Translations under genes and position numbers: made by a program
In this document: positions 47,331-63,827 of the stretch, in pieces
Layout: the number at the start of each line of letters is the position of its first letter
Numbering within the stretch: position 1 is the first letter of the stretch
Notes under the pieces: generated by a model
The model's input: the letters and a program-made list of their open reading frames with translations, nothing else
What the model was told of the DNA's origin: nothing
The model's database searches: none
NCBI RefSeq assembly: GCF_020618415.1
Contig: NZ_CP085345.1
Coordinates: 2,356,001 to 2,420,000, forward strand
From: Cupriavidus sp. MP-37
GTDB lineage: Bacteria > Pseudomonadota > Gammaproteobacteria > Burkholderiales > Burkholderiaceae
Length of the DNA stretch: 64,000 nt
Reading direction: 5' to 3'

Positions 47331-47387
47331 TCGATAATTGATATGATTTGACTCTGAAAATGAAACTTACCTATGATGGAGCCAGGC

Positions 47388-48236
47388 ATGAACGATATGC
47401 GCCTCGCCAAAAGTGAAGCCAGGCCGGACGGAGACACGCCGGCGCTGCGCTTGTTCGGCCTGCTCGAGGTCATCGCGGAGAAGGACCAGTCCTTCAACCT
47501 GCAGGCGCTGGTGGAAGAGACCGGCCTGCCCAAGCCCACGCTGCATCGCATGCTGCAGCAGCTGGAGGCGGCAGGACTGATCCAGCGCAACGGCGACGGG
47601 CGGCAATACGGCACCGGCCTGCGGCTGCGCCGGCTGGCGGAGAACCTGTTGCTCAACAGCACCTCGCATGGCGCGCGCCACATGGTGCTGCGCCGGCTGG
47701 TGGAAGAGGTGGGCGAGAGCTGCAACCTGACCGCGTTCTCCGGCGGCGAGGTGCTGTACCTGGATCGCGTCGAGACCGCGGCGCCGCTGCGCTTCTACCT
47801 GCATCCGGGTTCGCGCGTGCCGGCGCACTGCTCGGCCACCGGCAAGCTGTTCCTGGCGCAGCTGGCGCCGGCGCAGCGGCAGCGGCTGCTGGCCAACGTG
47901 GAGCTGGAACGCTACACGCAGAACACGCTGACCGACCATGCGCAGCTGGAGTCGGAGCTGGAGCGCGTCAAGCGCGACGGCTACGCCATGGACGATGAAG
48001 AGTTCCTGCCGGGACTGGTCTGCATCGGCGTGCTGGTGCCGGCGGCCGATGGCGGCAAGTCCAACCTGGGGCTGGCGCTGCAGGCCCCGGTGATGCGGGT
48101 GTCGCGCGACAAGGCGGTGCAGCTGCTGCCCGCGCTGCAGCGCGCGGCGGCGGCGCTGGCGGCGATCGAGGCCGACAGCGCGGGCGGCTGGCAGGGCGGC
48201 GCCGAGGCCACGGACGCCGCGGAAGAGGACGAATAG
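47388..48236 (+). CDS. IclR-family transcriptional regulator
   Basis: A 282-residue IclR protein: N-terminal winged helix (ALRLFGLLEVIAEKDQSFNLQALVEETGLPKPTLHRMLQQLE) and the GAF-like effector domain with the characteristic segment PAHCSATGKLFLAQL and a C-terminal Asp/Glu-rich tail. The ATG 47388 has GGAG 6 bases upstream; ATG 47373 is in frame. It is divergent from the permease and upstream of the CobS/CobT-like pair, 76 bases away, so either could be its target. Confidence 0.9.
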   Translation: MNDMRLAKSEARPDGDTPALRLFGLLEVIAEKDQSFNLQALVEETGLPKPTLHRMLQQLEAAGLIQRNGDGRQYGTGLRLRRLAENLLLNSTSHGARHMVLRRLVEEVGESCNLTAFSGGEVLYLDRVETAAPLRFYLHPGSRVPAHCSATGKLFLAQLAPAQRQRLLANVELERYTQNTLTDHAQLESELERVKRDGYAMDDEEFLPGLVCIGVLVPAADGGKSNLGLALQAPVMRVSRDKAVQLLPALQRAAAALAAIEADSAGGWQGGAEATDAAEEDE

Positions 48237-48312
48237 CACGCACGGCGTTACGCGGAACCGCTCCGCTTGCCGCCGTGCCGATGGCAACGCGGCAAGCAAC
48301 AAGGAGCATGAG

Positions 48313-49302
48313 GTGACGCAAGAGCAGTTTGGCAAGCCGGACCGGATGATTCCGGTGCGCAGCGTGTTTGGCATCGATTCGGGCCTGATGGTGCCGGCCT
48401 TCAGCCAGCGCGACGACCACGTGCCGGAGATCGACCCGGCCTACCGCTTCCAGCCCGAGGTGACGCTGGCGATCCTGTCCGGCTTCATGCGCGACCGGCG
48501 CGTGATGGTGCAGGGCCTGCACGGCAGCGGCAAGTCGACCCATATCGAGCAGGTGGCCGCGCGGCTGAACTGGCCCTGCGTGCGCGTCAACCTGGACGGC
48601 CACATCAGCCGGCTCGACCTGGTCGGCAAGGATGCCATCGTGGTGCGCGACGGCCGCCAGGTCACCGAGTTCCAGGAAGGCATCGTGCCCTGGGCGCTGC
48701 AGCGCCCGGTGGCGCTGATCTTCGACGAATACGACGCGGGCCGGCCCGACGTGATGTTCGTGATCCAGCGCATCCTGGAGCGCGACGGCACGTTCACGCT
48801 GCTGGACCAGAACCGCGTGATCCGCCCCCATCCGTCCTTCCGTCTCTTTGCCACCTCCAACACCGTGGGCCTCGGCAACGTCAACGGGCTCTATCACGGC
48901 ACGCAGCTGCTCAACCACGCGCAGATCGATCGCTGGAACGTGGTGGCGACGCTGGACTACCTGCCGCACGACGAAGAGGCGGGCATCGTGCTGGCACGCG
49001 TGCCCGAGCTGGATCACGCGGACGGGCGCGCGCTGGTCGATGCCATGGTGGCGCTGGCCGGGCTGACCCGGCGCGGCTTTGCCGCCGGCGATGTGTCGGC
49101 GCTGATGTCGCCGCGCACCGTGATCAGCTGGGCCGAGAACTGCCAGATCTTCCGCGATCCCGCGCTCGCGTTCCGGCTGACCTTCCTGAACAAGTGCGAC
49201 GAGGCCGAGCGGCCGGTGGTGGCGGAGTACTACCAGCGCTGCTTCGGCCACCTGCCGGGCGAGGCCGCCGGCGTCAGCGCCGCGACGGAGCCGGCGCGAT
49301 GA
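48313..49302 (+). CDS. CobS-like AAA+ ATPase
   Basis: A 329-residue MoxR/CobS-type AAA+ ATPase. Walker A GLHGSGKST is at 68-76, Walker B VALIFDEYDAG near 133-143, and VNLDGHISRLDLVGKDA and FATSNTVGLGN are CobS signatures. CobS with CobT drives CobN in aerobic cobalt insertion into hydrogenobyrinate diamide. No CobN or other cobalamin gene is in the window, so a chelatase or other metal-cofactor assembly role is inferred only by family. GTG start, 6 bases after AAGGAG. The CobT-like start overlaps its stop by 4 bases. Confidence 0.87.
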   Translation: MTQEQFGKPDRMIPVRSVFGIDSGLMVPAFSQRDDHVPEIDPAYRFQPEVTLAILSGFMRDRRVMVQGLHGSGKSTHIEQVAARLNWPCVRVNLDGHISRLDLVGKDAIVVRDGRQVTEFQEGIVPWALQRPVALIFDEYDAGRPDVMFVIQRILERDGTFTLLDQNRVIRPHPSFRLFATSNTVGLGNVNGLYHGTQLLNHAQIDRWNVVATLDYLPHDEEAGIVLARVPELDHADGRALVDAMVALAGLTRRGFAAGDVSALMSPRTVISWAENCQIFRDPALAFRLTFLNKCDEAERPVVAEYYQRCFGHLPGEAAGVSAATEPAR

Positions 49303-51020
49303 ATGCCGCGGCGCTCGCCCGCCAGCTGCGCCGGCGCCAGCGGCAGGACGAGCTGTCCGGCGCCGCGGTGCGCGCGTTGACCGGCGATGCCGCGCTGCAT
49401 TTCCGCGACGGCCAGCTCTGGCGCGCGCTGCGCCCGGTGCCGCAGCATGCGCCGCACCTGCGCACCGACCCGGACACCGACACCGCCACCTGCCTGCGCG
49501 GCGCCGCCGATGGCGCCGCGCTGCGCCAGGCGCATTCCGACGCGGCGCTGCACCGCAGCCTCTGTCCCGCCGACCCGGTCGAGCGCCTGGTGTTCGAGCT
49601 GCTCGAGCAGCTGCGCTGCGAGACCCGGCTGCCGCGCGGCATGGCCGGCGTCGCGGCTAACCTGCGCCACCGCTTCCTGGCGTGGTCGCGCGCGTTCCAT
49701 CGCTCGGGACTGACCGAGGGCCATCTCGGCATCCTGCTCTATACCGTGGCGCAGGTGGCATGGTCGCGCCTGACCGGCGAGCCGGTGCTGGAAGACACCG
49801 AGGACCTGATCGAGGCCACGCGCGCCGCCATCGTGCCGATGCTGGGCACCCAGCTGGCGGGGCTGCGTGCGAGCCGCCACGACCAGGCTGCCTACGCAAC
49901 GCATGCCCTGGCGCTGGCGCGCGCGGTGGCGCAGATGATCCGCACCGAAGCGCCCGGCGCCGGTGAAGACGACGACAACGCCGCCTCCGCCGCGCGCGCC
50001 GGCTTTGCGCTGTGGCTCGACTTCGACGAAGCGCCCGCCGAGGACTTCGCCCTGGCCGACAGCGGCCACAGCCGCGTGCTCGCCGACGCCACCGATGGCT
50101 ACCGCATCTACACCACCCGCTACGACCGCGAAGTGCGCGCCGCCACGCTGGTGCGCCGCGCCTTGCTGGACGAGTACCGCACGCGGCTGGACGCACGCAT
50201 TGCGCGCGGGGGCGTGAACATCGCCCGGCTGGCGCGCCGGTTGCGCGCCGCGCTGTCGCAGCCGCGCGTGGACGGCTGGTCGTTCGGCGAGGAAAGCGGC
50301 CGCATCGACGGCCGCCGCCTGGCGCAGCTGGTCAGTTCGCCCGCCGAGCGCCGGCTGTTCCGACAGGAAGCGCACAAGGCCCATGCCGACTGCGTGGTCG
50401 GCTTCCTGATCGACTGCTCCGGCTCGATGAAGGCGCAGGCCGAGCCGCTGACCCTGCTGGTCGACCTGCTCACCCGCGCGCTGGACCAGGCCGGCGTCGC
50501 CACCGAGGTGCTGGGCTTTACCACCAACGCATGGAACGGCGGACGCGCGCGCAGCGACTGGCTCGCGCGCGGCCGCCCGCAGCATCCGGGCCGGCTCAAC
50601 GAAACCTGCCACATGGTGTTCAAGGACGCGCAGCGCAGCTGGCGCCGCGCGCGCACCGACATCACGGCGTTGCTGAAGGCCGACCTGTTCCGCGAAGGCG
50701 TCGACGGCGAGGCGGTCGAATGGGCCTGCGCGCGCCTGCATGCCAGCGGCAAGGCGCGCCGCATCCTGGTGGTGGTGTCCGACGGCAGCCCGATGGATAC
50801 CGCGACGGGGCAGGCCAACGACGCCTGCTACCTTGACAACCACCTCAAGGCCGTGGTGGCGCGGCACGAAGCGCTGCGCGATGTGGAGGTGCTGGGGCTG
50901 GGGGTCGGGCTGGACCTGAGCCCGTATTACCGGCATACGCTCGCGCTGGACCTGTCGCAGCCGGTGGATATGGCGATGCTGGACGAGGTGGCGGGGCTGG
51001 TGGGGGCGAGGCGGCGCTAG
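49299..51020 (+). CDS. CobT-like protein with von Willebrand factor A domain
   Basis: A 573-residue protein whose C-terminal half is a VWA domain with MIDAS motif D372-x-S374-x-S376 (LIDCSGSMK), and whose N-terminal half is a long helical region of the CobT type with an acidic patch (GEDDDN). With the CobS-like ATPase it resembles the AAA-VWA part of aerobic cobaltochelatase. The ATG overlaps the CobS stop. The pair is convergent, 41 bases apart, with the ferredoxin operon. Whether it acts on cobalamin or on another metalloenzyme cannot be decided here. Confidence 0.85.
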   Translation: MNAAALARQLRRRQRQDELSGAAVRALTGDAALHFRDGQLWRALRPVPQHAPHLRTDPDTDTATCLRGAADGAALRQAHSDAALHRSLCPADPVERLVFELLEQLRCETRLPRGMAGVAANLRHRFLAWSRAFHRSGLTEGHLGILLYTVAQVAWSRLTGEPVLEDTEDLIEATRAAIVPMLGTQLAGLRASRHDQAAYATHALALARAVAQMIRTEAPGAGEDDDNAASAARAGFALWLDFDEAPAEDFALADSGHSRVLADATDGYRIYTTRYDREVRAATLVRRALLDEYRTRLDARIARGGVNIARLARRLRAALSQPRVDGWSFGEESGRIDGRRLAQLVSSPAERRLFRQEAHKAHADCVVGFLIDCSGSMKAQAEPLTLLVDLLTRALDQAGVATEVLGFTTNAWNGGRARSDWLARGRPQHPGRLNETCHMVFKDAQRSWRRARTDITALLKADLFREGVDGEAVEWACARLHASGKARRILVVVSDGSPMDTATGQANDACYLDNHLKAVVARHEALRDVEVLGLGVGLDLSPYYRHTLALDLSQPVDMAMLDEVAGLVGARRR

Positions 51021-51061: not shown

Positions 51062-51391
51062 TTAGTCGCCGCTGGCGGCGGCGGGCTGGGGACGCGCGGC
51101 CATGGTCTTCGGTTGCCACGAGACCGCGACATCGCCGGCCATGAAGGTCTGGCATGCCAGCCGGAAGCCATCGGCCAGTTCCGCTTCCGTCAGCAATTTC
51201 CTTTCCTTCGGCTTGACCGCATCGGTATGCTCGCGGCCTTGCTCGATGCGGCACTTGCAGGTGCCGCACAGGCCGCCGCCGCATTTGAACGGGATGCCGC
51301 CCTGTTCGCGCAGCGATACGCGCAGCAGGTTGCTGTTGGCCGGGGCACTGACGGTCTTGCCGTGGTTGGTGAGGAAGGTGATCTGGATCAT
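51062..51391 (-). CDS. 2Fe-2S ferredoxin
   Basis: A 109-residue plant-type ferredoxin with ligands C37-x4-C42-x2-C45 and C80. It is the last gene of a minus-strand run (permease, ferredoxin, small unknown protein, ferredoxin) transcribed from 53678. Two soluble ferredoxins in one run, next to a cluster with a diiron oxygenase and a reductase, suggest an electron-transfer role for that cluster; this is inference. Its stop lies 41 bases from the convergent CobT-like gene. Confidence 0.87.
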   Translation of the reverse strand: MIQITFLTNHGKTVSAPANSNLLRVSLREQGGIPFKCGGGLCGTCKCRIEQGREHTDAVKPKERKLLTEAELADGFRLACQTFMAGDVAVSWQPKTMAARPQPAAASGD

Positions 51392-51423: not shown

Positions 51424-51741
51424 TCAGGAGCGCTCGTCCGCGGCGAGCGGTGCGGGCACGAGGGCGATCTCCATGCTGCCGAAGCTGGCCAGCTGGCGCA
51501 GCGCGTCGCGGGCGGCTTCGAGCGTGGCGTACTTGTCGAGGAAACGGGTCGAGACCAGGTTGACGATGCCGGGCGGCGTTTCCTCGCGCACCCGGACCTT
51601 GGTATCGGCGGCCAGTTCGGCAATGACGAAGCGTGCGGTGCGCTTGCCGTAGAAGACGTAGTCGTAAGCCTCGACGGCGGTCATGCCGTCGGTGGGTTCG
51701 GTGCGGAACTGGCCGGGGCGGCTGGTCAGCAGCACGAACAT
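51424..51741 (-). CDS. Conserved small protein between two ferredoxins, function unknown
   Basis: A 105-residue soluble protein beginning MFVLLTSRPGQFRTEPTDGM, with no cysteine, no signal peptide and no membrane segment. I do not recognise the family. It lies one base from the upstream ferredoxin gene and 32 bases from the next, so it is clearly part of that unit. A hidden role such as an assembly factor or electron-partner docking protein is possible. The alternative longer frame overlaps the ferredoxin gene and is rejected. Confidence 0.75.
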   Translation of the reverse strand: MFVLLTSRPGQFRTEPTDGMTAVEAYDYVFYGKRTARFVIAELAADTKVRVREETPPGIVNLVSTRFLDKYATLEAARDALRQLASFGSMEIALVPAPLAADERS

Positions 51742-51742
51742 G

Positions 51743-52078
51743 TCAGGCTCCCGCGCTGGCCCCGGCCAGCGCGGCCGGTGCCGGCACATCGTCCTGCGCC
51801 AGTTCGATGTCATGCTCGATCCACAACTGGCACGCCAGCCGGTAGCCTTGTTCGAGCCGTTCGCCGAGCTGCTTCTTTTCCTTCCAGTTGGGCGGGGGCA
51901 GGTGCTCGGCGCCGGCGATTACGCGGCACGCGCACTTCGAGCATTTGCCCATGCCGCATTCGTAGCGCAGGTTGGGGTAGGGGAACTGGCGGATGCCGGC
52001 GCGGACCACCAGGTTGGTGCGGGGACCGACCTCGTCGGTAAAGGTCTGGCCGAACTTGTGCAGGATGACTTTTGGCAT
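51743..52078 (-). CDS. 2Fe-2S ferredoxin
   Basis: A 111-residue plant-type ferredoxin with ligands C41-x4-C46-x2-C49 and C83 (ECGMGKCSKCACRV). It differs from the ferredoxin at 51062-51391 in sequence, so the two are not a recent duplicate. ATG 52078 lies 61 bases downstream of the permease gene stop. The gene run probably serves one electron-transfer chain. Confidence 0.87.
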   Translation of the reverse strand: MPKVILHKFGQTFTDEVGPRTNLVVRAGIRQFPYPNLRYECGMGKCSKCACRVIAGAEHLPPPNWKEKKQLGERLEQGYRLACQLWIEHDIELAQDDVPAPAALAGASAGA

Positions 52079-52139
52079 CGTTGGTCTGGGCAAGGTCACG
52101 AAAAAGGTCAGGGAAAAACCGTCGCGGTGCTGCGTCCAC

Positions 52140-53678
52140 CTACGACCACAACACCATCGCCGCCACGGTGGAGCAGCCCAGCCCGATCAGCACCGGGATC
52201 AGCAGCGCGCGCACCGCTTCCAGCACCGGCACGCGCGCAAAGCCGGCCACCGCGATCAGCGACGACCACGCCACCAGCGTGCCGCCGCCGGTCCAGACCG
52301 CGCCCATCTGGCCGACCGCCGCCAGTGTCGCGGGGTCGAAGCCGACCACCGGTCCCAGTGCGCCGGCCAGCGTGCCGGTCAGCGGCAGGCCGGCAAAGCC
52401 GGAACCGTCGATGCCGGTGATCATGCCGACCAGCAGCACGCCGAAGGCGACCAGCATGTGGTTGTCGGGGATCAGGTGCTGGTAGGCCTGGATCAGCTCG
52501 AACAGCAGGCTGGGCGCCTTGCCCGGCGGCAGGCCGAGGATATGCGCCGCGGTCTCGCCGGCGCCGACGAAGAAGAAGCCCGCGATCGGCAGCACCGAAC
52601 CCATGGCCTTGAAGGCAAAGACGAAGCCGTCGGTGATGTGCTCCGGGCACACATCCAGCATGCGGCGCGGGCCTTCCGCGGCCAGCGTCGCCAGCATCAT
52701 CAGCACCGCGGCAACCCCGCCCACCAGCGCGGCGGCCTCGCCGCCCTTCAGGTCGTGCACGCCGGCGCCGAGCTTGGGCAGCACCATCACCGCGACCACG
52801 GCGAGGAAGGCCAGCGGTGTCACGATGGCAAAGCACTTGGACCACTTCACCCGCCGCCGCGCCACCATCGACAGGCTGGCTTCGATATTGCTGTCGGTGG
52901 CGAGCGGTTCGGCGTGGGCGGTGCCCTTCGCGATCTCGGCCTTGTCGAAGGTGATGCCGCCATCGATGGCTTCGGCGCTGCCGCCGGCGCGCGCCTGCCA
53001 GCGGTCGAGCAGCGTGCCGCAGGCCGGCACGATGTGCTTGCGCATCGACAGGTAGGCCAGGCACAGCGCGATGCCGCCGGTGATCAGCGACAGCGCCAGC
53101 GCGCGGTCGGCCACCACCGCCGCGCTGACGGCCGCGCCGGCGGCCTTGGCGCTGATGCCGGGCGCGACGCCGATGACGTAGTCCGACGACAGCGCCATGC
53201 CTTGCCCGGCGATGGCAATCGCCATCGCGCCCGCCAGCGGCGGCAGCCCGGCGGCGATCGCGGCCGGCAGCAGGATGGCCGATACCAGCGGCACCGCCGG
53301 CGTCGGCCAGAAGAACAGCGAGATCAGGTAGGTGATGCCCGCCAGGATAAAGAACGCCGAATGCCCGTTCTTCATCACCACGCGGAAGGGCTCGACCATG
53401 CGGATGTCCGAGCGCAGCGTCTTGAGCGCGTTGAGCAGCGCCGTCATGAAGGCGATCACCAGGAAGATGTTGAACAGCTCCCGCGCGGCGACCAGGCTCG
53501 CCGAGAACACTCCCGCCAGCGCCGACACCGGGCTGCCGGTCAGCGCAAACACGACCAGGGCGGTGCCGACGATCGACGGGACGACGACATTGGCGCGCAG
53601 GATCATCGTCAGCACGATGACTGCTACCCCTGACAGATAGATCCAGTGCGCGGCACCGATCACGACTTGTTGTGACAT
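52140..53678 (-). CDS. Multi-spanning permease, ion-transporter-like
   Basis: A 512-residue protein with about 12 hydrophobic segments and a large cytoplasmic loop (residues about 225-285, rich in Asp/Glu/Lys). Repeated Pro/Gly motifs such as GITYLISLFFWPTPAVPLVSA and GMITGIDGSGFAGLPLTG resemble ion-transporter superfamily proteins (citrate/GntP/TRAP-large-like). I cannot name the substrate. It is divergent from the TauE/SafE gene, with GTATAC sites at 53741 and 53925 in between, so it probably belongs to the same regulon. Confidence 0.7.
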   Translation of the reverse strand: MSQQVVIGAAHWIYLSGVAVIVLTMILRANVVVPSIVGTALVVFALTGSPVSALAGVFSASLVAARELFNIFLVIAFMTALLNALKTLRSDIRMVEPFRVVMKNGHSAFFILAGITYLISLFFWPTPAVPLVSAILLPAAIAAGLPPLAGAMAIAIAGQGMALSSDYVIGVAPGISAKAAGAAVSAAVVADRALALSLITGGIALCLAYLSMRKHIVPACGTLLDRWQARAGGSAEAIDGGITFDKAEIAKGTAHAEPLATDSNIEASLSMVARRRVKWSKCFAIVTPLAFLAVVAVMVLPKLGAGVHDLKGGEAAALVGGVAAVLMMLATLAAEGPRRMLDVCPEHITDGFVFAFKAMGSVLPIAGFFFVGAGETAAHILGLPPGKAPSLLFELIQAYQHLIPDNHMLVAFGVLLVGMITGIDGSGFAGLPLTGTLAGALGPVVGFDPATLAAVGQMGAVWTGGGTLVAWSSLIAVAGFARVPVLEAVRALLIPVLIGLGCSTVAAMVLWS

Positions 53679-53948: not shown

Positions 53949-54704
53949 ATGCCCTCCACCTTGCTGACCTTGCTGCCTCCAGGCGTTTCTGCTCCGGACT
54001 ACCTGTGGATGGGCGTGCTCATCCTGACCGGCGCGTGCCTGCAAGGCGTGGGCGGGATCGGCTTTGCGATGCTGTGCGCGCCGCTCGGCGCGATCTTTTT
54101 CCCCGAGCTGGTGCCGGGGCCGCTGCTGGCGATGGGTTGCTGCCTGTCGTTGATGGGCGCGTTGCGCGAGCGCGAAGCCATCGTCTGGCCTGTCGCCGGC
54201 TTTGCCCTGGTCGGGCGGGCACTTGGCGGCGCGGCGGCGGTGCTGACCATCGCCTGGCTGGCGCCGGGCCCGCTGGCGGTGCTGTTTTCGCTGTCGATCC
54301 TGGCCGCGGTGGCGCTGAGCCTGCTCGGCTGGCGCCTGTTGCCGGATCCCCGCAACGTGGTGATTGCCGGCACGCTGTCCGGCTTTATGGGAACCATCAC
54401 CTCGGCCGGCGCGCCGCCGTTCGCGCTGGTCATGCAGCACATGGCGCCCGCGCCGATGCGCGCGACCATGGGCTGCATCTTGTCGGGCGGCGCCGTGCTG
54501 TCGCTGGCCATGCTGACGCTGGCCGGGCGCTTCGGCATGCCAGAGCTGTTATTGGCGCTGGCGCTCGCGCCGTTCCTGCTGGCCGGGTTTGCGCTGTCGA
54601 ACCGGCTGCGGGGGCGCGTTTCCGCCGACACCGTGCGGCGCTTGCTGCTGGGCCTGTGCGCGGCCGGCGCGCTGGGCGTGCTAGGCCGCGCGGCCTTTGC
54701 CTGA
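53949..54704 (+). CDS. TauE/SafE-family (TSUP) membrane permease
   Basis: A 251-residue protein with about 8 hydrophobic segments and the duplicated TSUP pattern (GACLQGVGGIGFAMLCAP, then LSGFMGTITSAGAPPFAL). These permeases export or import small organic anions such as sulfite, sulfoacetate or formate-like acids. ATG 53949 is preferred over an 82-residue extension that crosses the regulatory elements. The OCD-like gene follows after 60 bases, so the permease may move the substrate or an end product of the cluster. Confidence 0.82.
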   Translation: MPSTLLTLLPPGVSAPDYLWMGVLILTGACLQGVGGIGFAMLCAPLGAIFFPELVPGPLLAMGCCLSLMGALREREAIVWPVAGFALVGRALGGAAAVLTIAWLAPGPLAVLFSLSILAAVALSLLGWRLLPDPRNVVIAGTLSGFMGTITSAGAPPFALVMQHMAPAPMRATMGCILSGGAVLSLAMLTLAGRFGMPELLLALALAPFLLAGFALSNRLRGRVSADTVRRLLLGLCAAGALGVLGRAAFA

Positions 54705-54764: not shown

Positions 54765-55697
54765 ATGCAGCACATCACAGACGCCATGATCGATGCCCAC
54801 GTCACCCCCGAAGCGGCCCTGCAGGTCATGGCGTCCGCGTTTTCCAGCTTCGGGCGCGGCGATGCCGCGATGCAGGCGCGCATCCGCACCGAGGCGGGCG
54901 GCGTCAAGCTGTCCACGCTGGGGGCAGTCATCCCGCAGCAGGGCGTGGCCGGCGCCAAGGTCTACACCACCATCAATGGACAGTTTTCCTTCGTCATCCT
55001 GATTTTCTCGAGCGACGACGGCCGTCCGCTGGCTTCGCTCGACGCCGGCGCGATCACGCGGCTGCGCACCGCGGCCTGCACCACGCTGGCGGCGCAGCGG
55101 CTGGCCCGCGCCGGCGCGCGCACGCTGGCCTTGTTCGGTGCCGGCACGCAGGGCGCACAGCACGCGCGCCAGCTCAGCGCCACCCTCGGGCTCGAGCGCA
55201 TCCTGGTGTCCGATCCGCATGCCGATGCCGGCATGCCGGCACGGCTGTCGGCGCAGTGCGGCATCCCGGTGGCGCTGGCCGAGCCCGATGCCGCGGTGGC
55301 CGAGGCCGACCTCATCGTCACCGCCTCGCGCGCGACCACGCCGCTGTTCTCGGGTGCGGCAATCCGGCCAGGCGCCTTTGTCGCCGCCATTGGCTCCAGC
55401 CTGCCGCACACGCGCGAACTGGACGACACCGCGCTGCGCCGCGCCGCCGCGGTGGTGGTCGAGTGGCGGCCGCAATCGACCCGCGAGGCGGGCGATATCG
55501 TGCTGGCCGATCCCGGCGCGCTGCCGCCGGAAAAGATCGTCGAACTGGCCGACGTCGTGCTCGGCAAGGTGTCGCCGCGGCAGCGCGACGACGACATCGT
55601 GATCTACAAGTCGGTCGGCGTCGGCCTTGAAGACGTCGCGCTGGCGGGATACGCGTGGTCGCGTATCGCGGGCGAGGCCGAGCGCCGCGCCGGCTGA
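54765..55697 (+). CDS. Ornithine cyclodeaminase/mu-crystallin family protein
   Basis: A 310-residue OCD-family protein: VAGAKVYTTINGQ, a Rossmann motif LALFGAGTQGAQHARQL, TRAACTTLAAQRLARAG and IGSSLPHTRELDDTALRRA. Members are NAD(P)-dependent deaminating cyclases, ketimine reductases or alanine dehydrogenase-like enzymes. The catalytic Asp of true ornithine cyclodeaminases is not obvious, so ketimine or imine reduction is at least as likely. The ATG follows CGGAG. It precedes element 3 and the diiron oxygenase gene by about 180 bases. Confidence 0.85.
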   Translation: MQHITDAMIDAHVTPEAALQVMASAFSSFGRGDAAMQARIRTEAGGVKLSTLGAVIPQQGVAGAKVYTTINGQFSFVILIFSSDDGRPLASLDAGAITRLRTAACTTLAAQRLARAGARTLALFGAGTQGAQHARQLSATLGLERILVSDPHADAGMPARLSAQCGIPVALAEPDAAVAEADLIVTASRATTPLFSGAAIRPGAFVAAIGSSLPHTRELDDTALRRAAAVVVEWRPQSTREAGDIVLADPGALPPEKIVELADVVLGKVSPRQRDDDIVIYKSVGVGLEDVALAGYAWSRIAGEAERRAG

Positions 55698-55787: not shown

Positions 55788-55874
55788 AACATGCCGAGAC
55801 CCATTCCGAATCGAACTGGATTCCGGCATTCCAACCCATCGCATCGCCCCACACCGACCACCAGGAGTCCCGTT

Positions 55875-56606
55875 ATGGCCGAACTGATGAACCGTGAAGA
55901 TTTCCGTGCCGCCCTTGAACAAGCGATCAAGGGCAAGAGTGCCAACCAGGCGCCGTTCAGCGTGGCCTGGGCCAGCGGCAAGCTGACCCGCGCTCATCTC
56001 GCGCGCTGGGCCGAAAACCACTACCACTACGTCGGGCCGTTCGCCGACTACCTGGGCTACATCTATGCGCGCACGCCGGACCGCTACACCGAGGCCAAGG
56101 ACTTCCTGCTGGCCAACATGTATGAGGAAGAGATCGGCGGCGACCGCCACACCGACCTGCTGATCCGTTTTGCCGAAGCCTGCGGCACCACGCGCGAGCG
56201 CGTGATCGACCCGGACAATATGTCGCCCACCACGCGCGGCCTGCAGAGCTGGTGCTACGCCGTGGCGATGCGCGAGGACCCGATCGTCGCCGTGGCCGGC
56301 CTGGTGGTGGGCCTGGAATCGCAGGTGCCGTCGATCTACCGCAAGCAGACGCCGACGCTGCGCGACAAGTACCAGTTCACCGACGAAGAGGTCGAGTTCT
56401 TCGACCTGCATATCGTCTCGGACGAGATCCACGGCGAGCGCGGCTACCAGATCGTGCTCGAGCACGCCAATACGCCGGAGCTGCAGCAGCGCTGCCTGAA
56501 GATCTGCGAGATCGGCGCGCAGATGCGGCTGCTGTACACCACCGCGCTCTATCACGACTACGTCGAAAACGAGTTGCCGCTGCCGGATCTGGAGATGGCG
56601 GCCTGA
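55875..56606 (+). CDS. Haem-oxygenase-like diiron oxygenase (HDO) family enzyme
   Basis: A 243-residue all-helical protein in the PqqC/TenA/CADD superfamily. All six expected diiron ligands are present with the HDO spacing: E85-x6-H92, E148, H179-x3-D183-x2-H186. This is the pattern of CADD, UndA and BesC, which use O2 to oxidise or cleave substrates such as amino acids or fatty acids, not that of the thiaminase TenA. ATG 55875 is preceded by GGAG; element 3 lies upstream. It leads a five-gene run (HDO, aldehyde dehydrogenase, HbpS, reductase, GntR). The reaction is unknown, but a ferredoxin-type reductase in the run could supply electrons and the aldehyde dehydrogenase could take the product. 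Confidence 0.9.
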   Translation: MAELMNREDFRAALEQAIKGKSANQAPFSVAWASGKLTRAHLARWAENHYHYVGPFADYLGYIYARTPDRYTEAKDFLLANMYEEEIGGDRHTDLLIRFAEACGTTRERVIDPDNMSPTTRGLQSWCYAVAMREDPIVAVAGLVVGLESQVPSIYRKQTPTLRDKYQFTDEEVEFFDLHIVSDEIHGERGYQIVLEHANTPELQQRCLKICEIGAQMRLLYTTALYHDYVENELPLPDLEMAA

Positions 56607-56631
56607 GCGGCGCCACGCAACGGGATCGACG

Positions 56632-58077
56632 ATGACTGTGTTCCTCAACCATATCGACGGCGAATGGACGGCCTGCCAGTCGGGCCGGACCTTCGACAAC
56701 GTCAACCCGGCCGACACCGCCGACATCGTGGGCCGCTTCCAGGCCTCGTCCGCGGTCGACGCGCAGGCGGCCGTCGCGGCCGCGACGGCGGCCTTTGCCG
56801 GCTGGAAGAAGACGCCGGTCGGCAAGCGCGCCGCCATGCTCAACCGCGCCGCCGACCACCTGGAAGCGAATGCCGACAGCATCGCCGCCGAGCTGACCCG
56901 CGAGGAAGGCAAGGCCCTGGCGCTGGCGCGCGATGAAGTGCTGCGCTCCGCCCAGACGCTGCGCTTCTATGCCGTGGAAGGGCAGACCTTCACCGGCGAG
57001 GTGTATCCCAACGACGACCCTGACCAGCTGGTCTACAGCCAGCGCGAGCCGCTTGGCGTGGTGACGGTGATTGCGCCGTGGAATTTCCCGATATCGATCC
57101 CCGCGCGCAAGATCGCACCGGCGCTGGTCACGGGCAACACGGTGGTGTTCAAGCCGTCGTCCGAGGCGCCGCTTTCGGGGTACCGGCTGGCCGAGGCGCT
57201 GGTGCAGGCCGGGCTGCCCAAGGGCGTGCTCAACTTCATCACCGGCAGCGCCGTCGAGATCGGCGCCGCCATCACCGAGGCGCCGGCGGTGCGGGCGATT
57301 TCGTTCACCGGTTCGTCGCGCGCGGGGGAGCAGATCCACCGGGCGGTACCGCTTACCACGCGCACGCAAATGGAACTGGGCGGCAAGAACCCGCTGATCG
57401 TGATGGAGGATGCCGACCTGGACCGCGCGGTCGACCTGACCATCAAGGGCGGCTTCTCGCTGTCGGGGCAGGCGTGCACCGGCACCAGCCGCGTGCTGGT
57501 CGCCCAATCCGTCAAAGCGGCATACACCGAACGCCTGCTCGCGAAGGTTGCCACGCTCAAGGTCGGCGGCGGCATGACGCCGGGCATGGATCTTGGGCCG
57601 CTCGCCTCGCATAAGCAGCTGGAAACGGTGCTGCGCTACCTCGACATCGGCAAGGCCGAGGCGACGCTGCTGTGCGGCGGTACGCGCCTGGCCGGCGGCG
57701 ATTACGACAAGGGCTACTACGTCGCGCCGACGGTATTTACCGACGTGACGCCGCAGATGCGGATCGCGTGCGAGGAGATCTTCGGCCCGGTGATCGCCAT
57801 CCTCGGCTTCACGGACTATGCCGACGCCATCGCCAGGGCCAACGATACCGAGTACGGCCTGGCCGCGGCCATCGTCACCCGCAACCCGCGCTACATCCAC
57901 GACTTCGCCAACGACATCGAGGCGGGCACGGTCAAGATCAACCGTACCACCACCGGCAACCTGGTGAACGCACCGTTCGGCGGGCTGAAGCGGTCGAGCA
58001 CATCGACCTTCCGCGAATCGGGCCGCACCGGGCTGGAGTTCTATACGCAGGTCAAGACGGTCTACCGGGGCGTCTGA
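56632..58077 (+). CDS. NAD(P)-dependent aldehyde dehydrogenase
   Basis: A 481-residue ALDH: PWNFPISIPARKIAPALVTGN, FTGSSRAG, the catalytic Glu in MELGGKNPLIVMEDADLD, and the catalytic Cys in LSGQACTGTSR. EEIFGPVIAI and PFGGLKRS are C-terminal landmarks. The architecture is that of succinate-semialdehyde/2,5-dioxovalerate-type enzymes. It starts 26 bases after the HDO gene and probably oxidises an aldehyde made there. The substrate is not identifiable from sequence. Confidence 0.9.
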   Translation: MTVFLNHIDGEWTACQSGRTFDNVNPADTADIVGRFQASSAVDAQAAVAAATAAFAGWKKTPVGKRAAMLNRAADHLEANADSIAAELTREEGKALALARDEVLRSAQTLRFYAVEGQTFTGEVYPNDDPDQLVYSQREPLGVVTVIAPWNFPISIPARKIAPALVTGNTVVFKPSSEAPLSGYRLAEALVQAGLPKGVLNFITGSAVEIGAAITEAPAVRAISFTGSSRAGEQIHRAVPLTTRTQMELGGKNPLIVMEDADLDRAVDLTIKGGFSLSGQACTGTSRVLVAQSVKAAYTERLLAKVATLKVGGGMTPGMDLGPLASHKQLETVLRYLDIGKAEATLLCGGTRLAGGDYDKGYYVAPTVFTDVTPQMRIACEEIFGPVIAILGFTDYADAIARANDTEYGLAAAIVTRNPRYIHDFANDIEAGTVKINRTTTGNLVNAPFGGLKRSSTSTFRESGRTGLEFYTQVKTVYRGV

Positions 58078-58104
58078 GCCCGGCCGTCGCAAGGAGCCAT
58101 ACCA

Positions 58105-58584
58105 ATGAAGAAAGCCATCAAGCTGGAACTGCGCGAGGCGCGCCACATGGTTGCCGCGGCGATCCGGCGCTCGCAAGAAATCGGCGTGCTCGAGTCGATC
58201 TGCGTGGTCGACGAGGGCGGCTACCCGCTCGCGCTGGAGCGCATGGACGGCGCCCGCATCACCGGACCGCAGATCGCGTGGAACAAGGCGTTTACCGCCG
58301 CGGGCCACAAGCGCTCGACGCATTTGTTCACCACGCCGCCGAACGGGCCGGCACTGCCGGGCAACGAGGCCTTCGGCATCCAGTGGAGCTTCGAGGGCAA
58401 GTTCGCCGCGTTTGTCGGCGGCTTCCCGATCGTCGTTAACGACGAGGTCATCGGCGGCATCGGCCTGTCCGGCGGCAACGGCGAGCAGGACACGCAGGCC
58501 GGCCTGGCCGCCTTGCAGGCCCTGGCCGAACTGCTGGCGCCGCAGGACCTGAAGGTGCTGGTACAGGCCGACATCAAGAAGTAA
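58105..58584 (+). CDS. GlcG/HbpS family protein
   Basis: A 159-residue GlcG/HbpS-like protein: GVLESICVVDEGGYPLALERMDGA, WNKAFTAAGHKRST, and GGIGLSGGNGEQD. Its relatives bind haem or cobalamin-like cofactors, or are of unknown function in oxidase operons such as glcDEF. It is 28 bases after the aldehyde dehydrogenase. A haem or metal delivery role would suit a metalloenzyme cluster, but that is inference. Confidence 0.85.
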   Translation: MKKAIKLELREARHMVAAAIRRSQEIGVLESICVVDEGGYPLALERMDGARITGPQIAWNKAFTAAGHKRSTHLFTTPPNGPALPGNEAFGIQWSFEGKFAAFVGGFPIVVNDEVIGGIGLSGGNGEQDTQAGLAALQALAELLAPQDLKVLVQADIKK

Positions 58585-58605
58585 GCACGCTTGCCGGGAG
58601 GTCCC

Positions 58606-59607
58606 ATGTCGTACCGAATCCAGGTCGCCGAAACGGAAGAGGTCTTCTTTGTCGAGCGCGGCGAGACGCTGCTGCAGGCCGCACAGCGTGCCGGCATTGC
58701 CTTGCGCCACGACTGCCAGCTGGGCGGCTGCGGCACCTGCCGCATCTGCCTGCTCGACGGACAGGTGCGCTACGACGAGGAACCGTTCGGCCTGGCCCCG
58801 GACGAGGCCGCGGCCGGTTTCGCGCTGGCGTGCCAGGCGCAGCCACAGGCCGACCTGGTCATCAGCACGGCGCGCGACGACGAGGCCTGCGCCGAACCGG
58901 CGCGCCATCGCGCGCTGGTGCGGGCATTGCGGCCGCTGTCGGCCGATGTCATGCACGTCGAGCTGGAGGTGCCGGGCGCGGTTTCGCTGGACTACCGGCC
59001 CGGGCAATACCTGAAGCTGCTGAGCGGCGACGGGCTCGCGCGCAGCTTCTCGATGGCTTCGGTGCCGCGCGACGGGCGCATCGACCTGCACGTGCGGCGC
59101 ATTCCCGGCGGCGCCTTTACCGATGGCATCCTGCCGCGCATGCGCGCCGGCGACGCCATCGAGGTCGAGCTGCCGCTGGGCAGCTTCTTCTACCGCGCAC
59201 GCGACTACCGGCCGCTGCTGATGGTGGCCACCGGCACCGGACTGGCGCCGATCAAGGCGATCCTGGAATCGCTGATGGATGATCCCGACTGCCCGCCGGT
59301 GTCGTTGTACTGGGGCATGCGGCAGGCGCAGGACCTGTACCTGCATGGCGAGATCCCGGCCTGGGGCGAACGGCTCTGCGACTTCCGCTACGCGCCGGTG
59401 CTGTCGCGCGCCGGCGCTGACTGGCAGGGCCGGCGCGGCTATGTGCATGACGCGGCGCTGGCCGATCTGGGTGACCTGAGCGAATACGCCATCTACCTGT
59501 GCGGCTCGCCCGACATGATCCGTGACGCGCGCGCCGCCTTTACCGCGCATGGGGCCAGTCCCGACCACCTCTACGCCGACAGCTTCACGTTCCAGCACCC
59601 TTGTTAA
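58606..59607 (+). CDS. NAD(P)H-dependent ferredoxin-type oxidoreductase
   Basis: A 333-residue electron-transfer protein with three parts: an N-terminal plant-type 2Fe-2S domain (C37-x4-C42-x2-C45, C76), an FAD domain (YRPGQYLKLL, RSFSMASVP) and an NAD(P) domain (GTGLAPIKAI). This is the one-component reductase type found with Rieske and diiron oxygenases. ATG 58606 has GGGAGG in front. It lies in the HDO run and is a good candidate to reduce the HDO cofactor; the ferredoxins at 51-52 kb could be alternative mediators. Confidence 0.9.
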   Translation: MSYRIQVAETEEVFFVERGETLLQAAQRAGIALRHDCQLGGCGTCRICLLDGQVRYDEEPFGLAPDEAAAGFALACQAQPQADLVISTARDDEACAEPARHRALVRALRPLSADVMHVELEVPGAVSLDYRPGQYLKLLSGDGLARSFSMASVPRDGRIDLHVRRIPGGAFTDGILPRMRAGDAIEVELPLGSFFYRARDYRPLLMVATGTGLAPIKAILESLMDDPDCPPVSLYWGMRQAQDLYLHGEIPAWGERLCDFRYAPVLSRAGADWQGRRGYVHDAALADLGDLSEYAIYLCGSPDMIRDARAAFTAHGASPDHLYADSFTFQHPC

Positions 59608-59678: not shown

Positions 59679-60389
59679 ATGTCCCTTACTCCGTCTCCTG
59701 CCGCGCCCGCCGAGCCGCTGAGCCTCGGTGCCAGCCACTCGCCGCTGTTCGCCCTTGTCACCGACAAGCTGCGCGAAGGCATCCTGAACGGCAAATACGC
59801 CCCGGGCGAGCGGCTGGTGGAGAACAAGCTTTCGGCGGAACTGGGCGTGTCGCGCATCCCGGTGCGCGAGGCGCTGCGCGCGCTCGCCAGCGAAGGGCTG
59901 GTGCTGATCGAGCCGCGCCGCGGCGCGACCGTGGCCAGCCTGTCGCCGGTGATCGCGCGCGAGATGGTCGAGGTGCGCGCCACGCTGGAAGGCCTCAACG
60001 CCAAGCTCGCCGCGCAGCGGCGCGACCCGGCGCTGGTGGCGGAGCTGGAAAACGTGTTGCGGCAGGGCATGGAGGCCGCCGCGCAGGGCCGCGCGGACGA
60101 GCTGCTGGCGCTCAATACGCGCTTCCACGAGGTGCTCGGCACCATCGCGGCCAACAGCGTGCTGCAGGAAATGATGCGTTCGCTGCGCGAGCGCACCGCG
60201 GTGCTGTTCGGCCCCGCCAACGTGGTGCGCGCGCGCCAGAACTGGGACGAGCACGCCCAGATCCTGCAGGCCGTGATCGCCGGCGACGCCGACCTCGCGG
60301 CGTTGCTGGCCGCGCGCCATGTCTACAGCGCCGCCAAGGCAGCCGACCTTCCGGTGGGCGGGCAGGGCAGCGCGGTGCAGGCGGCCTGA
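59679..60389 (+). CDS. GntR-family regulator (FCD/FadR subfamily)
   Basis: A 236-residue regulator: winged helix at about 25-85 (LVTDKLREGILNGKYAPGERLVENKLSAELGVSRIPVREALRALASEGL) and an FCD effector domain with metal-type residues (ARERTAVLFGPANVV, NTRFHEVL). FCD proteins bind short palindromes of the GT...AC type and respond to organic acids. It sits between the HDO run and the amidase unit and is the obvious candidate reader of the GTATAC elements at 53741, 53925, 55773, 59633, 60515 and 60895. Mostly a repressor in this subfamily. Confidence 0.88.
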   Translation: MSLTPSPAAPAEPLSLGASHSPLFALVTDKLREGILNGKYAPGERLVENKLSAELGVSRIPVREALRALASEGLVLIEPRRGATVASLSPVIAREMVEVRATLEGLNAKLAAQRRDPALVAELENVLRQGMEAAAQGRADELLALNTRFHEVLGTIAANSVLQEMMRSLRERTAVLFGPANVVRARQNWDEHAQILQAVIAGDADLAALLAARHVYSAAKAADLPVGGQGSAVQAA

Positions 60390-60986: not shown

Positions 60987-62459
60987 GTGAACCTGCCGGA
61001 CTGGACGACTGGCGGCTTTCCGCCGCTATGGGAAGTGGCGCAGCGGCTTGCCGGCGGCACGGTGTCGTCGGAGGAACTGGTGGATGCCTGCGAGGCGGCG
61101 CAGAGGCAATGGCACGGCATCATCAATGCGCTGGTGCTGTCGGATTTCGGCGCGGCCCGCGCGGCGGCGCGCGACAGCGACCGGCGCCGCCGTGCCGGCC
61201 AGGCGCGCGGCGCGCTCGACGGCGTGCCGTTTTCGGTCAAGGAGTCGTTCGACGTCGCCGGCTGGCCCACCACCTGCGGCAATCCGGCGCTGCGCGGGCA
61301 CGTGGCCGCGCGCGACGCGGTGGTGGTGCAGCGGCTGCGCGACGCCGGCGCGATCCTGCTCGGCAAGACCAATGTTCCGCTCGGCCTGCGCGACTGGCAG
61401 AGCTACAACGCGATCTACGGCACCACCCGCAATCCGCACGATCCGACGCGCACGCCGGGCGGCTCGTCCGGCGGCAGCGCCGCGGCGGTCTGCGCCGGCG
61501 TGTCGTTCTTCGATGTGGGTTCCGACATCGGTTCCTCGCTGCGCAATCCGGCGCACTACTGCGGCATCTTCTCGCTCAAGCCCAGCCACGGGCTGGTGCC
61601 GCTGGCCGGCCACGGCAGCGGTGCCGCGCGCTTCGGCGAGCAGGACATCAACGTCGCCGGCCCGCTGGCGCGCAGCGCGCGCGACCTGGAACTGGTATTG
61701 CGCACCATCGCGGGCCCGGCCGGCGACGACGCGCTGCCATACCGCTTGCAGTGGCCCGAATGCCCGCACCGCCGGCTCGCCGACTTCCGCATCGCGGTGC
61801 TGCCCACCCATGCCCAGGCGCAAGCAGACAGTGAGGTCGCCGCGCAGATCGAGCAGCTGGGCCACTGGCTGGCGGGGCAGGGTGCCCACGTCGGCTGGCA
61901 CGCCCGGCCCGACTTCGACGCCGGCGAGCTATGGCATGCCTACGTAACGCTGCTGCGCGCCACCACCTCGGTGCACATGGATGACGCTGCCTTCGCCGAT
62001 GCGCAGGCCCGCAGCGCCAACGCCGACGCGGGCGACCACGACTACGCGACCCTGCAGTACACCGGCGCGACGCTGAGCCACCGCGACTGGCTGCGCCTGC
62101 AGGTCACGCGTGAACGCTTTGCCGCCGCATGGCGCCGCTTCTTCAGCCGCTACGACGTGCTGCTATGCCCGGCCGCCACCACCACGGCGTTCGCGCTCGA
62201 CGAGGCAGGCGAGCCATGGCAGCGCACGCTCACCGTCAACGGCCGGCCGCAGCCGATGACCACGCAGTTGTTCTGGGCCGGCCATTCCGGGCTGTGCGGC
62301 CTGCCCTCTGCGGTGGCGCCGATCGGCCCCGGTGCCGGCGGACTGCCGGTCGGCGTGCAGATCGTCGCCGGCCGCTACCAGGATCTCACCGCCTTGCGTT
62401 TTGCCAGCCTGCTGGAGGAAGCAGGCTATGCCTACCGGCCGCCGAAGCTGACCGCCTAG
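60987..62459 (+). CDS. Amidase signature family amidase
   Basis: A 490-residue amidase with the Ser-cisSer-Lys triad region: Lys in GVPFSVKESFDVAGWPTT, the Gly/Ser-rich PGGSSGGSAAAVCAG, and the nucleophilic Ser in GSDIGSSLRNPA. The enzyme hydrolyses an amide, or a related C-N bond, to an acid and ammonia or amine. The start is GTG 60987, 5 bases after AAGGAG; an overlapping ATG two bases earlier is out of frame. It follows element 6 and precedes an MFS transporter by 63 bases, so import and hydrolysis are probably linked. Confidence 0.9.
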   Translation: MNLPDWTTGGFPPLWEVAQRLAGGTVSSEELVDACEAAQRQWHGIINALVLSDFGAARAAARDSDRRRRAGQARGALDGVPFSVKESFDVAGWPTTCGNPALRGHVAARDAVVVQRLRDAGAILLGKTNVPLGLRDWQSYNAIYGTTRNPHDPTRTPGGSSGGSAAAVCAGVSFFDVGSDIGSSLRNPAHYCGIFSLKPSHGLVPLAGHGSGAARFGEQDINVAGPLARSARDLELVLRTIAGPAGDDALPYRLQWPECPHRRLADFRIAVLPTHAQAQADSEVAAQIEQLGHWLAGQGAHVGWHARPDFDAGELWHAYVTLLRATTSVHMDDAAFADAQARSANADAGDHDYATLQYTGATLSHRDWLRLQVTRERFAAAWRRFFSRYDVLLCPAATTTAFALDEAGEPWQRTLTVNGRPQPMTTQLFWAGHSGLCGLPSAVAPIGPGAGGLPVGVQIVAGRYQDLTALRFASLLEEAGYAYRPPKLTA

Positions 62460-62522: not shown

Positions 62523-63827
62523 ATGTTCGATTGGTTCCGTGATTTGTCGCGCATGGAGCGCAAGGGATTCTATGGCGCGTTCCTGGGGCATGCCGTCGAC
62601 GTGTTCGACTTCATGATCTATTCCTTCCTCATCTCCACGCTGCTGGGGCAGTGGGGCATGAGCAAGTCGACGGCGGGGGCGATCGTCACCTGGACGCTGG
62701 TGTCGTCGCTGGTCGGGGCGATCGGGGCCGGCATCCTGGCCGACCGCTACGGCCGCGTGCGCGTGCTGCGCTGGACCATCATCGTATTCGCGGGCGCGTG
62801 CTTCCTGTGCGGGCTGGCGCAGTCGCCGGAGCAACTGATGGTTTTCCGCATGATCCAGGGCCTCGGGTTCGGCGGCGAGTCGTCGCTGTGCATGGTGCTG
62901 GTGACCGAGATGATCCGCAACCCGGCCCACCGCGGCAAATACTCGGGCTTTACCGCGAGCAGCTATTCCTTCGGCTGGGGCGCGGCGGCGATCGTGTATG
63001 CGATCACGTTCAGCGTGCTGCCGGCGGAGACGGCATGGCGCGTCTGCTTCTTCCTCGGCATCCTGCCGGCGCTGGTGGTGATCTACCTGCGCCGCAACCT
63101 GGAGGAGCCCGAGATCTTCCTGAAGAGCCGCGCCGCCGGCCACCATGGCTCGGCGCTGGCCGGGCTGGGCCGGCTGTTCCGCGGGCCGCTGCTGGCCAAG
63201 ACGCTGCTGTGCAGCCTGCTGTCCGGCGGCATGCTGGGGGCGTATTACGCCATTGCCACGTGGCTGCCCACCTTCCTCAAGACCGAGCGCGGCCTGTCGG
63301 TGTTCGGCACCAGCTCCTACCTGGCGGTCACGATCATCGGCTCACTGGCCGGCTACGTGGCGGGCGCCTATGCCACCGATCGCTGGGGCCGGCGGCTCAC
63401 GTACATCGTATTTGCCGCGGGAGCCTTCATCGCCGCGCTGGTCTACATGGTGATCCCGGTGTCCAACACGTCCATGCTGTTCCTCGGCTTCCCGCTGGGC
63501 GTGCTGATGCAGGGCGTGTTTGCCGGCATCGGCGCGACCATCGCCGAGTCCTATCCCAACGATGTCCGCGCCACGGGTTATGGCGTCTCGTACAACGCAG
63601 GCCGCGTGATCGGCTCGCTGTTCCCGCTGTCGGTCGGGTGGCTCAGTTCCGGGCACACCTCGCTGCCGGTTGCGATCGCCATTGTCGCTGGGGTTGGCTA
63701 TGCGATGGTCGTGGTCGCCGCGGCGCTGCTGCCCGAAACCACCGGCATGGACCTGGAACAGGCCGGCGGCAGTGGCGGCAAGGAAGACCCCACGCCGCTG
63801 GCGCGGCCGGCGGGGACGGTGGCCTGA
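62523..63827 (+). CDS. MFS transporter, MHS/sialate-type symporter
   Basis: A 434-residue, 12-helix MFS transporter: GHAVDVFDFMIYSFLISTLL, the loop 2-3 motif GILADRYGRVRVL, QGLGFGGESSLCMVLVTE, and a second-half AYATDRWGRRLTYIVF. This is the pattern of MHS/SHS proton symporters for acids and zwitterions. ATG 62523 follows GGGGAGGGG. It is downstream of the amidase and probably imports the cluster's substrate. A second transporter family (52140) acts in the same cluster. Confidence 0.88.
   Translation: MFDWFRDLSRMERKGFYGAFLGHAVDVFDFMIYSFLISTLLGQWGMSKSTAGAIVTWTLVSSLVGAIGAGILADRYGRVRVLRWTIIVFAGACFLCGLAQSPEQLMVFRMIQGLGFGGESSLCMVLVTEMIRNPAHRGKYSGFTASSYSFGWGAAAIVYAITFSVLPAETAWRVCFFLGILPALVVIYLRRNLEEPEIFLKSRAAGHHGSALAGLGRLFRGPLLAKTLLCSLLSGGMLGAYYAIATWLPTFLKTERGLSVFGTSSYLAVTIIGSLAGYVAGAYATDRWGRRLTYIVFAAGAFIAALVYMVIPVSNTSMLFLGFPLGVLMQGVFAGIGATIAESYPNDVRATGYGVSYNAGRVIGSLFPLSVGWLSSGHTSLPVAIAIVAGVGYAMVVVAAALLPETTGMDLEQAGGSGGKEDPTPLARPAGTVA

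Follow-up and report, generated by a model that had tools for sequence, protein, structure and literature searches.

A conserved proteobacterial gene cluster sets a predicted heme-oxygenase-like dimetal oxygenase among ferredoxins, an orphan protein and a DUF336 protein

In a 64,000-nucleotide stretch of the Cupriavidus sp. MP-37 genome (contig NZ_CP085345.1, forward-strand positions 2,356,001 to 2,420,000; hereafter the window, to which coordinates refer unless a locus is named), the plus-strand gene at 55875..56606 encodes a 243-residue protein that is, as judged from its sequence, a heme-oxygenase-like dimetal oxygenase (HDO) of the 3H/3C class. The cluster around this gene is genuine and conserved, and it extends further than the first description had it. 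A first-pass annotation had placed an aldehyde dehydrogenase (ALDH), a GlcG/HbpS protein and a reductase directly downstream of hdo, all of which are present on the same strand with small gaps between the genes, but it lacked an opposite-strand run (53678 to 51062) encoding a transporter-like protein, the ferredoxin Fdx2, an orphan protein named o129 and the ferredoxin Fdx1, as well as a TauE/TSUP gene at 53955..54704. We consider it somewhat probable that these genes specify a multicomponent HDO oxygenase system, set in a catabolic operon, fed with electrons by dedicated carriers, assisted by an accessory protein and usually yielding an aldehyde.

HDO matched PF14518, the heme-oxygenase-like fold, at 127 bits (cut-off 28.9), and its predicted ligands E85, H92, E148, H179, D183 and H186 stood where the first-pass annotation had put them. 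All six were unchanged in 94 of 94 rows of a locus alignment, which includes the window's own row and represents a few genomes twice, and in 59 of 59 aligned HDO homologues. Further Glu residues were invariant in the HDO alignment, for example E84, E86, E172 and E188, and are candidates for a seventh carboxylate ligand of the kind found in 3H/4C N-oxygenases (SznF type). The protein start, MAELMN at 55875, is conserved among relatives, while the longest open reading frame (ORF) begins at 55791.

The nearest solved relatives of HDO by sequence were 9pj4, a p-aminobenzoate synthase (66.7 bits), and 1rcw, which is CADD (62.5 bits), followed by PqqC. The six ligands of the p-aminobenzoate synthases CADD and NePabS align with those of HDO, and the E-x6-H and H-x3-D-x2-H spacing is identical in 1rcw. 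By contrast, the column of the sacrificial Tyr of CADD, which we take to be Tyr27, holds Ser29 in HDO (unchanged in 59 of 59 homologues), and the column of its catalytic Lys, presumably Lys152, holds Gln158, with a Lys one position earlier and a Thr in the paralogue rows displayed; HDO moreover sits in an operon with electron carriers, an ALDH and transporters. The CADD model of NCBIfam, TIGR04305, gave 94.8 bits against a cut-off of 200, the PqqC equivalog model TIGR02111 gave 53.8 bits against 240, and no TenA model was among the NCBIfam matches of HDO. In addition, PqqC is metal-independent, whereas the window protein has a complete metal ligand set. The failed cut-offs, the ligand set and the Ser29 and Gln158 columns together place HDO within the 3H/3C class and outside both families. 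The first-pass annotation had treated closeness to TenA or PqqC as telling against an HDO; PqqC activity is not suggested by these scores, but a remote kinship with TenA and PqqC is real as far as profile matching goes, the broad TENA_THI-4/PQQC family PF03070 being matched at 49.3 bits (cut-off 22), although PF14518 is by far the better match.

HDO was present in 55 of 60 Cupriavidus genomes and had a patchy distribution elsewhere, occurring in 10 of 399 Burkholderiales genomes, three of them Cupriavidus, and in 5 of 398 phylum-wide genomes, of which three were Cupriavidus and one belonged to a paralogue group. An HDO relative was encoded on 464 contig stretches of the genome collection, and the best 80 of these 464 were kept as named loci, which are hence skewed to close relatives. 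Carriers include Cupriavidus, Achromobacter, Bordetella, Paraburkholderia, Pandoraea, Azospirillum, Bradyrhizobium and others, and hdo also lies on a Caballeronia plasmid. Over rows mostly from Cupriavidus and Achromobacter, median identity to the window proteins was 90% for HDO, 84% for HbpS, 77% for Fdx2, 75% for Fdx1, 74% for ALDH, 57% for the reductase and 51% for o129.

Gene content was counted over 92 loci, comprising 91 in 19 lineages of our own grouping and one paralogue locus, with L041 (3.8 kb) excluded and at least three genomes occurring twice (L031/L067, L033/L082 and L034/L106). Genes were called by tblastn at 40% identity and 50% coverage or more, a rule that diverged copies can escape, and a single locus with the gene was enough for its lineage to score positive; the named lineages are alpha- and betaproteobacteria. 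HDO, HbpS and Fdx2 were found in all 19 lineages, Fdx1 in 18, and o129, ALDH and a GntR-type regulator (59679..60389, plus strand) in 17 each, followed by the reductase and the unclassified transporter (14 each), OCD (8), TauE (7) and the amidase (5). HbpS was found in 91 of the 92 loci, the single miss being a 6.9-kb contig. Gene order was shuffled among lineages while content stayed constant, which argues for a functional link rather than mere inheritance of a block. The neighbourhood, whose conservation the first-pass annotation had left to a search, is thus kept across 19 lineages far outside this strain, and the opposite-strand set of transporter, ferredoxins and o129 is the part tied most tightly to HDO.

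Within that set, which runs on the minus strand, the transporter-like protein (52140..53678) is followed by Fdx2 (51743..52099), o129 (51424..51741) and Fdx1 (51062..51391). Fdx2 and Fdx1 are plant-type [2Fe-2S] ferredoxins, and their four cluster Cys residues (C-x4-C-x2-C...C; positions 48, 53, 56 and 90 in Fdx2 and 37, 42, 45 and 80 in Fdx1) were unchanged in 90 of 90 and 89 of 89 rows, respectively. The plus-strand Fer2-FAD-NAD(P) reductase (58606..59607) combined PF00111, PF00970 and PF00175, with Fer2 Cys residues at 37, 42, 45 and 76, and came closest to the BenC model of NCBIfam, at 193.9 bits short of the cut-off of 430. The idea that HDO has its own reductase therefore stands, but not as its sole redox partner, since 14 of 19 lineages have the reductase as against 19 and 18 for the ferredoxins and 17 for o129.

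The o129 protein has ~105 residues, its ORF extending to 51813 and its likely start lying at 51741, and it matched no Pfam or NCBIfam family and gave no meaningful PDB match. Among 50 candidates, 30 were homologous at E up to 0.001, and of 300 Burkholderiales genomes six had o129, all six HDO-positive. G10, Y28, N61, A77, L84 and G88 were invariant in a 54-sequence alignment that held no conserved Cys or His; o129 is consequently no iron-sulfur protein, and the label of ferredoxin that it bears in some records is ruled out. In five Pandoraea loci o129 and Fdx1 form a single ORF, as do Fdx1 and a BD-FAE-type hydrolase in L034. One o129 match (G233:C12:81961-82266) had an in-frame TAG inside the aligned stretch.

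The ALDH (56632..58077, plus strand; PF00171) has an invariant C282, and its closest NCBIfam model was alpha-ketoglutaric semialdehyde dehydrogenase, at 555.6 bits short of the cut-off of 770. Its Arg159, which we take to bind the substrate carboxylate, recurred in every one of the 15 cluster ALDHs compared and also in the three SSADHs of the same genome that score above cut-off, and being shared with SSADHs it hints at a carboxylated aldehyde as substrate. The next gene, for HbpS/GlcG (58105..58584, plus strand; PF03928), encodes a member of the DUF336 family to which EfgA, GlcG, PduO-C and NahX also belong; it keeps the K/S/D pocket of these proteins and differs in lying beside an HDO. Its K61, S122 and D129 align with K57, S114 and D121 of the formaldehyde site of EfgA, a numbering that assumes that a tag shifts the PDB chain by 20 residues, and K61 was kept in 92 of 92 rows and S122 and D129 in 91 of 92, with one gap each. 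According to the available part of the EfgA study, EfgA binds formaldehyde and some DUF336 genes sit in aldehyde-producing pathways (PMC8153426). Three HbpS genes were found in the whole 6.1-Mb genome of this strain, a rarity that makes the steady presence of HbpS beside HDO no matter of chance.

Taking these observations together, we propose that HDO would assemble a dimetal site (Fe/Fe, possibly Mn/Fe) and activate O2. NAD(P)H would supply the electrons, relayed to HDO by the Fer2-FAD-NAD reductase, by the two dedicated [2Fe-2S] ferredoxins or by both, and o129, adjoining or fused to Fdx1, would act as a non-redox accessory in docking, coupling or assembly. In most lineages a reactive and probably carboxylated aldehyde would be formed; HbpS/DUF336 may bind or sense it, and the semialdehyde-type ALDH would turn it into an acid of central metabolism. 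Lineage-specific hydrolases would cleave amides or esters to free the substrate, whose uptake would fall to interchangeable transporters. The dedicated ferredoxins and the BenC-like reductase make an electron-consuming monooxygenation the simplest reading. Rieske and P450 dealkylases hydroxylate next to a heteroatom, after which the product collapses to an aldehyde and a leaving group, and such a hydroxylation would be the likeliest chemistry here, with C–S, C–N or C–C cleavage each conceivable. The first-pass annotation had proposed a pathway of import, amide hydrolysis, oxidative cleavage to an aldehyde and oxidation. Its catabolic look is borne out and cleavage to an aldehyde by HDO is plausible, but as a general scheme it is not supported: the amidase is in 5 of 19 lineages, other loci carrying unrelated hydrolases or none that we saw, and the ALDH, in 17, is common without being universal.

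Several observations weigh against the multicomponent system. ALDH was absent from two of the 19 lineages and was not found in the group A loci L188 to L190, one of which is truncated where its contig stops; not every lineage, then, need form an aldehyde. All 10 Bradyrhizobium loci were without the reductase; over its 20.7 kb, the full-length locus L100 of Paraburkholderia encodes HDO, ALDH, HbpS and the reductase but not Fdx2, o129 or Fdx1; and L036 (G238) has both ferredoxins without o129, ALDH, reductase, GntR or transporter. Residues of the EfgA site are largely conserved over the DUF336 proteins compared in the available part of that study (PMC8153426), and their occurrence in HbpS thus says little about aldehyde binding. 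No homology of o129 to the MmoB/DmpM effectors (PF02406) was detected by hhalign profile comparison (probability 0.5% over 13 columns, with shallow profiles; 21 of 22 MmoB_DmpM matches, representing 15 of 16 genomes, were used after removal of a partial match that contained a stop), and the Pfam scan was empty; o129 is therefore rejected as a member of that family, and an effector role would be analogy rather than homology. Finally, the 14 paralogue loci described below showed no Fdx1, Fdx2, o129, ALDH or reductase nearby.

Other loci vary in the same components. The MAG204 and G233 loci are without ALDH, reductase and transporter, and the Pseudolabrys locus L117 stops at a contig edge past fdx2. 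Six further group A loci all had Fdx2, o129, Fdx1, transporter and GntR, with HbpS in five, ALDH in three and the reductase in one, L188 ending early. L040 and L066 have two HDO copies per cluster, one in each half.

The paralogues form a second HDO group, ~45% identical and carrying seven extra residues between the columns of E85 and H92. From 32 matching genomes, three of them of the window's own group, 16 regions were taken besides G590; the group was examined in 14 loci from one order, with Pfam scans of one gene set (L179) and of the L038 Rieske protein. HbpS, GntR and a Rieske-domain protein were each present in 14 of 14 loci, an alpha/beta hydrolase in 12 and a TSUP protein in 10. HDO, DUF336, GntR and some [2Fe-2S] protein may accordingly represent an older core, and DUF336 would track HDO and not ALDH. 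The strain's 6.1-Mb genome has nine TSUP genes, the window copy included; with HbpS rare and TSUP uncommon there, the links of both to HDO exceed chance.

These TSUP genes also bear on a special case of the multicomponent system, in which HDO would be an organosulfonate C–S oxygenase that hydroxylates beside a sulfonate or similar sulfur group to give an aldehyde and sulfite, the latter exported by TSUP. A TSUP gene lies beside HDO in 7 of 19 lineages, with a different TSUP in L195, and in the majority of paralogue loci, set against nine TSUP genes in the genome of this strain; a gene for the sulfite dehydrogenase SorA is divergent from hdo in Achromobacter, where 16 loci out of 27 show it, a pair of them from the same genome (for example L067:8123-9355, its genome recurring as L031, and L070:8127-9362, the latter copy scoring 694 bits against a cut-off of 600; 14 other loci); and an SsuA-like binding protein adjoins L117. 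On the other side, no TSUP gene was found for 12 of the 19 lineages and the role of TSUP as a sulfite exporter is only putative here, SorA turned up in a single genus, is missing there from several loci with a full upstream region and may be a fixed neighbour, and the SsuA-like protein matches its model weakly (38.3 bits against 163.5). We regard a C–S oxygenase as rather unlikely.

We judge it similarly unlikely that HDO fragments C–C bonds as BesC and UndA do, abstracting hydrogen from an amino acid or a carboxylic acid and splitting the chain to give a small aldehyde or CO2. The 3H/3C ligand class is common to both, CADD-type proteins are the closest relatives, and neighbouring genes for OCD, an aspartate dehydrogenase (beside the L084 cluster) and a saccharopine-dehydrogenase-like protein (beside L119) suggest amino or imino acids. 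Yet OCD occurs in 8 of 19 lineages only, and none of the HDOs examined to date requires a protein effector, according to the accessible part of a 2026 review (PMC13108848), while HDOs other than MboAB are supported by chemical reductants or mediators, according to the accessible part of the MboAB paper (PMC13185094), whereas here two ferredoxins are nearly universal.

An N-oxygenase acting on an amino compound, for catabolism or to make a small N-oxidised metabolite, appears improbable. The same part of the review (PMC13108848) counts N-oxygenation among the principal HDO reactions, and HDO has the further invariant carboxylates E84, E86, E172 and E188, but the cluster's transporters, hydrolases, ALDH and GntR-type regulator point to catabolism. 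More improbable still is a protective oxidase that consumes O2 or peroxide, akin to the stress protein DtpC of Acinetobacter: one paper, in its accessible text, connects an HDO-like domain with protection from oxidative stress (PMC13232832), but HDO keeps metabolic company (GntR, transporter, ALDH), and a reading by eye of the flanks listed noticed no recurrent stress genes. A PqqC, a TenA or a CADD-type self-sacrificing p-aminobenzoate synthase, as the automatic database names (pyrroloquinoline-quinone synthase, TenA family regulator) and the PF03070 match would have it, is scarcely credible, and identity with PqqC or CADD is ruled out by scores far below the cut-offs and by the changed Tyr and Lys columns.

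The remaining neighbours vary more among lineages. The 512-residue transporter-like protein, whose role is read from its hydrophobic sequence, matched no Pfam family and had no meaningful NCBIfam match, and it perhaps represents an unclassified transporter family. In Paraburkholderia a TerC-family membrane protein adjoins this transporter (L098:15709-16476, confirmed by PF03741, with similar ORFs in L095, L101 and L116 recognised by eye). TerC proteins are associated with the export of manganese, and this neighbour may bear on an Mn/Fe cofactor of HDO. Upstream of hdo on the plus strand lie the TauE/SafE (TSUP) membrane protein gene and then a gene for an OCD/mu-crystallin family protein (54765..55697) of imine reductase or amino-acid dehydrogenase type, with 3hdj as a close solved relative. 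Downstream, the accessory amidase (60987..62459, plus strand) exceeded the PRK06170 cut-off of 503 with 723.7 bits, and an accessory MFS transporter of organic-acid/H+ symporter type (62523..63827, plus strand) occurs in the same lineages as the amidase; the OCD protein, amidase and importer had all been named in the first-pass annotation. A further TSUP gene follows the MFS gene ~2 kb past the window end (G000:C2:2422103-2422795).

Hydrolases differ by lineage (amidase, GGT-type, BD-FAE or carboxylesterase, isochorismatase-type) and look like interchangeable means of releasing one substrate from amides or esters. An isochorismatase-type hydrolase and an NMT1/SsuA-like binding protein recur near the cluster in L096, L112, L117 and L194. 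Hints of aromatic substrates, namely benzoate-dioxygenase-like genes at L083 (by eye), ring-hydroxylating dioxygenase annotations at L123, and VanB-like genes in six and VanA-like genes in two Bradyrhizobium loci, were insufficiently recurrent. Genes for an IclR regulator and CobS/CobT-like cobaltochelatase (47373-51020) adjoin fdx1; cobS, cobT and iclR were rejected as cluster parts, being found in 11, 11 and 10 of 83 long loci, in Cupriavidus only.

The proposed layout recalls bacterial multicomponent diiron monooxygenases such as sMMO and the toluene/phenol hydroxylases, which combine an oxygenase with a ferredoxin or Fer2 reductase and a small non-redox protein, but their oxygenase fold is unrelated to that of HDO and their MmoB/DmpM proteins are not homologous to o129. 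Rieske and P450 dealkylases that work with an ALDH, among them the carnitine, glycine betaine and methanesulfonate oxygenases, are alike in electron chain, oxygenase and aldehyde outcome and differ in oxygenase type. The mangotoxin acetylenase MboAB likewise joins an HDO to a reductase of the NAD(P)H-flavin-[2Fe-2S] type that serves it alone, and is possibly the first characterised dedicated pair of HDO and redox partner; as described in the accessible part of its report, it is biosynthetic with one redox partner, whereas the window cluster adds two ferredoxins and o129 and looks catabolic (PMC13185094). About a dozen HDOs have been functionally validated, mainly in natural-product biosynthesis, and the word ferredoxin is absent from the main text of the 2026 review as far as that text was accessible (PMC13108848). 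In literature that was mostly open-access we found no description of this cluster or of an HDO pathway of such make-up, in agreement with the first-pass annotation, and nothing on the gene set or in expression data that names the substrate.

We tentatively propose, with less confidence than for the multicomponent system itself, that the cluster is the first soluble multicomponent oxygenase based on an HDO, in which HDO would replace the ferritin-like hydroxylase and work with ferredoxins, a reductase and an effector-like o129 of a new family. Such a system would have evolved separately from the methane and toluene monooxygenases, and it would have passed from one proteobacterial class to another as a means of degrading a substrate that is common but unrecognised. 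If this is true, the HDO fold would also drive catabolic oxygenations, perhaps gated by partner proteins. The cluster gives a context to the DUF336 protein and to the unclassified transporter, and it makes the link between HDO and DUF336 directly testable.

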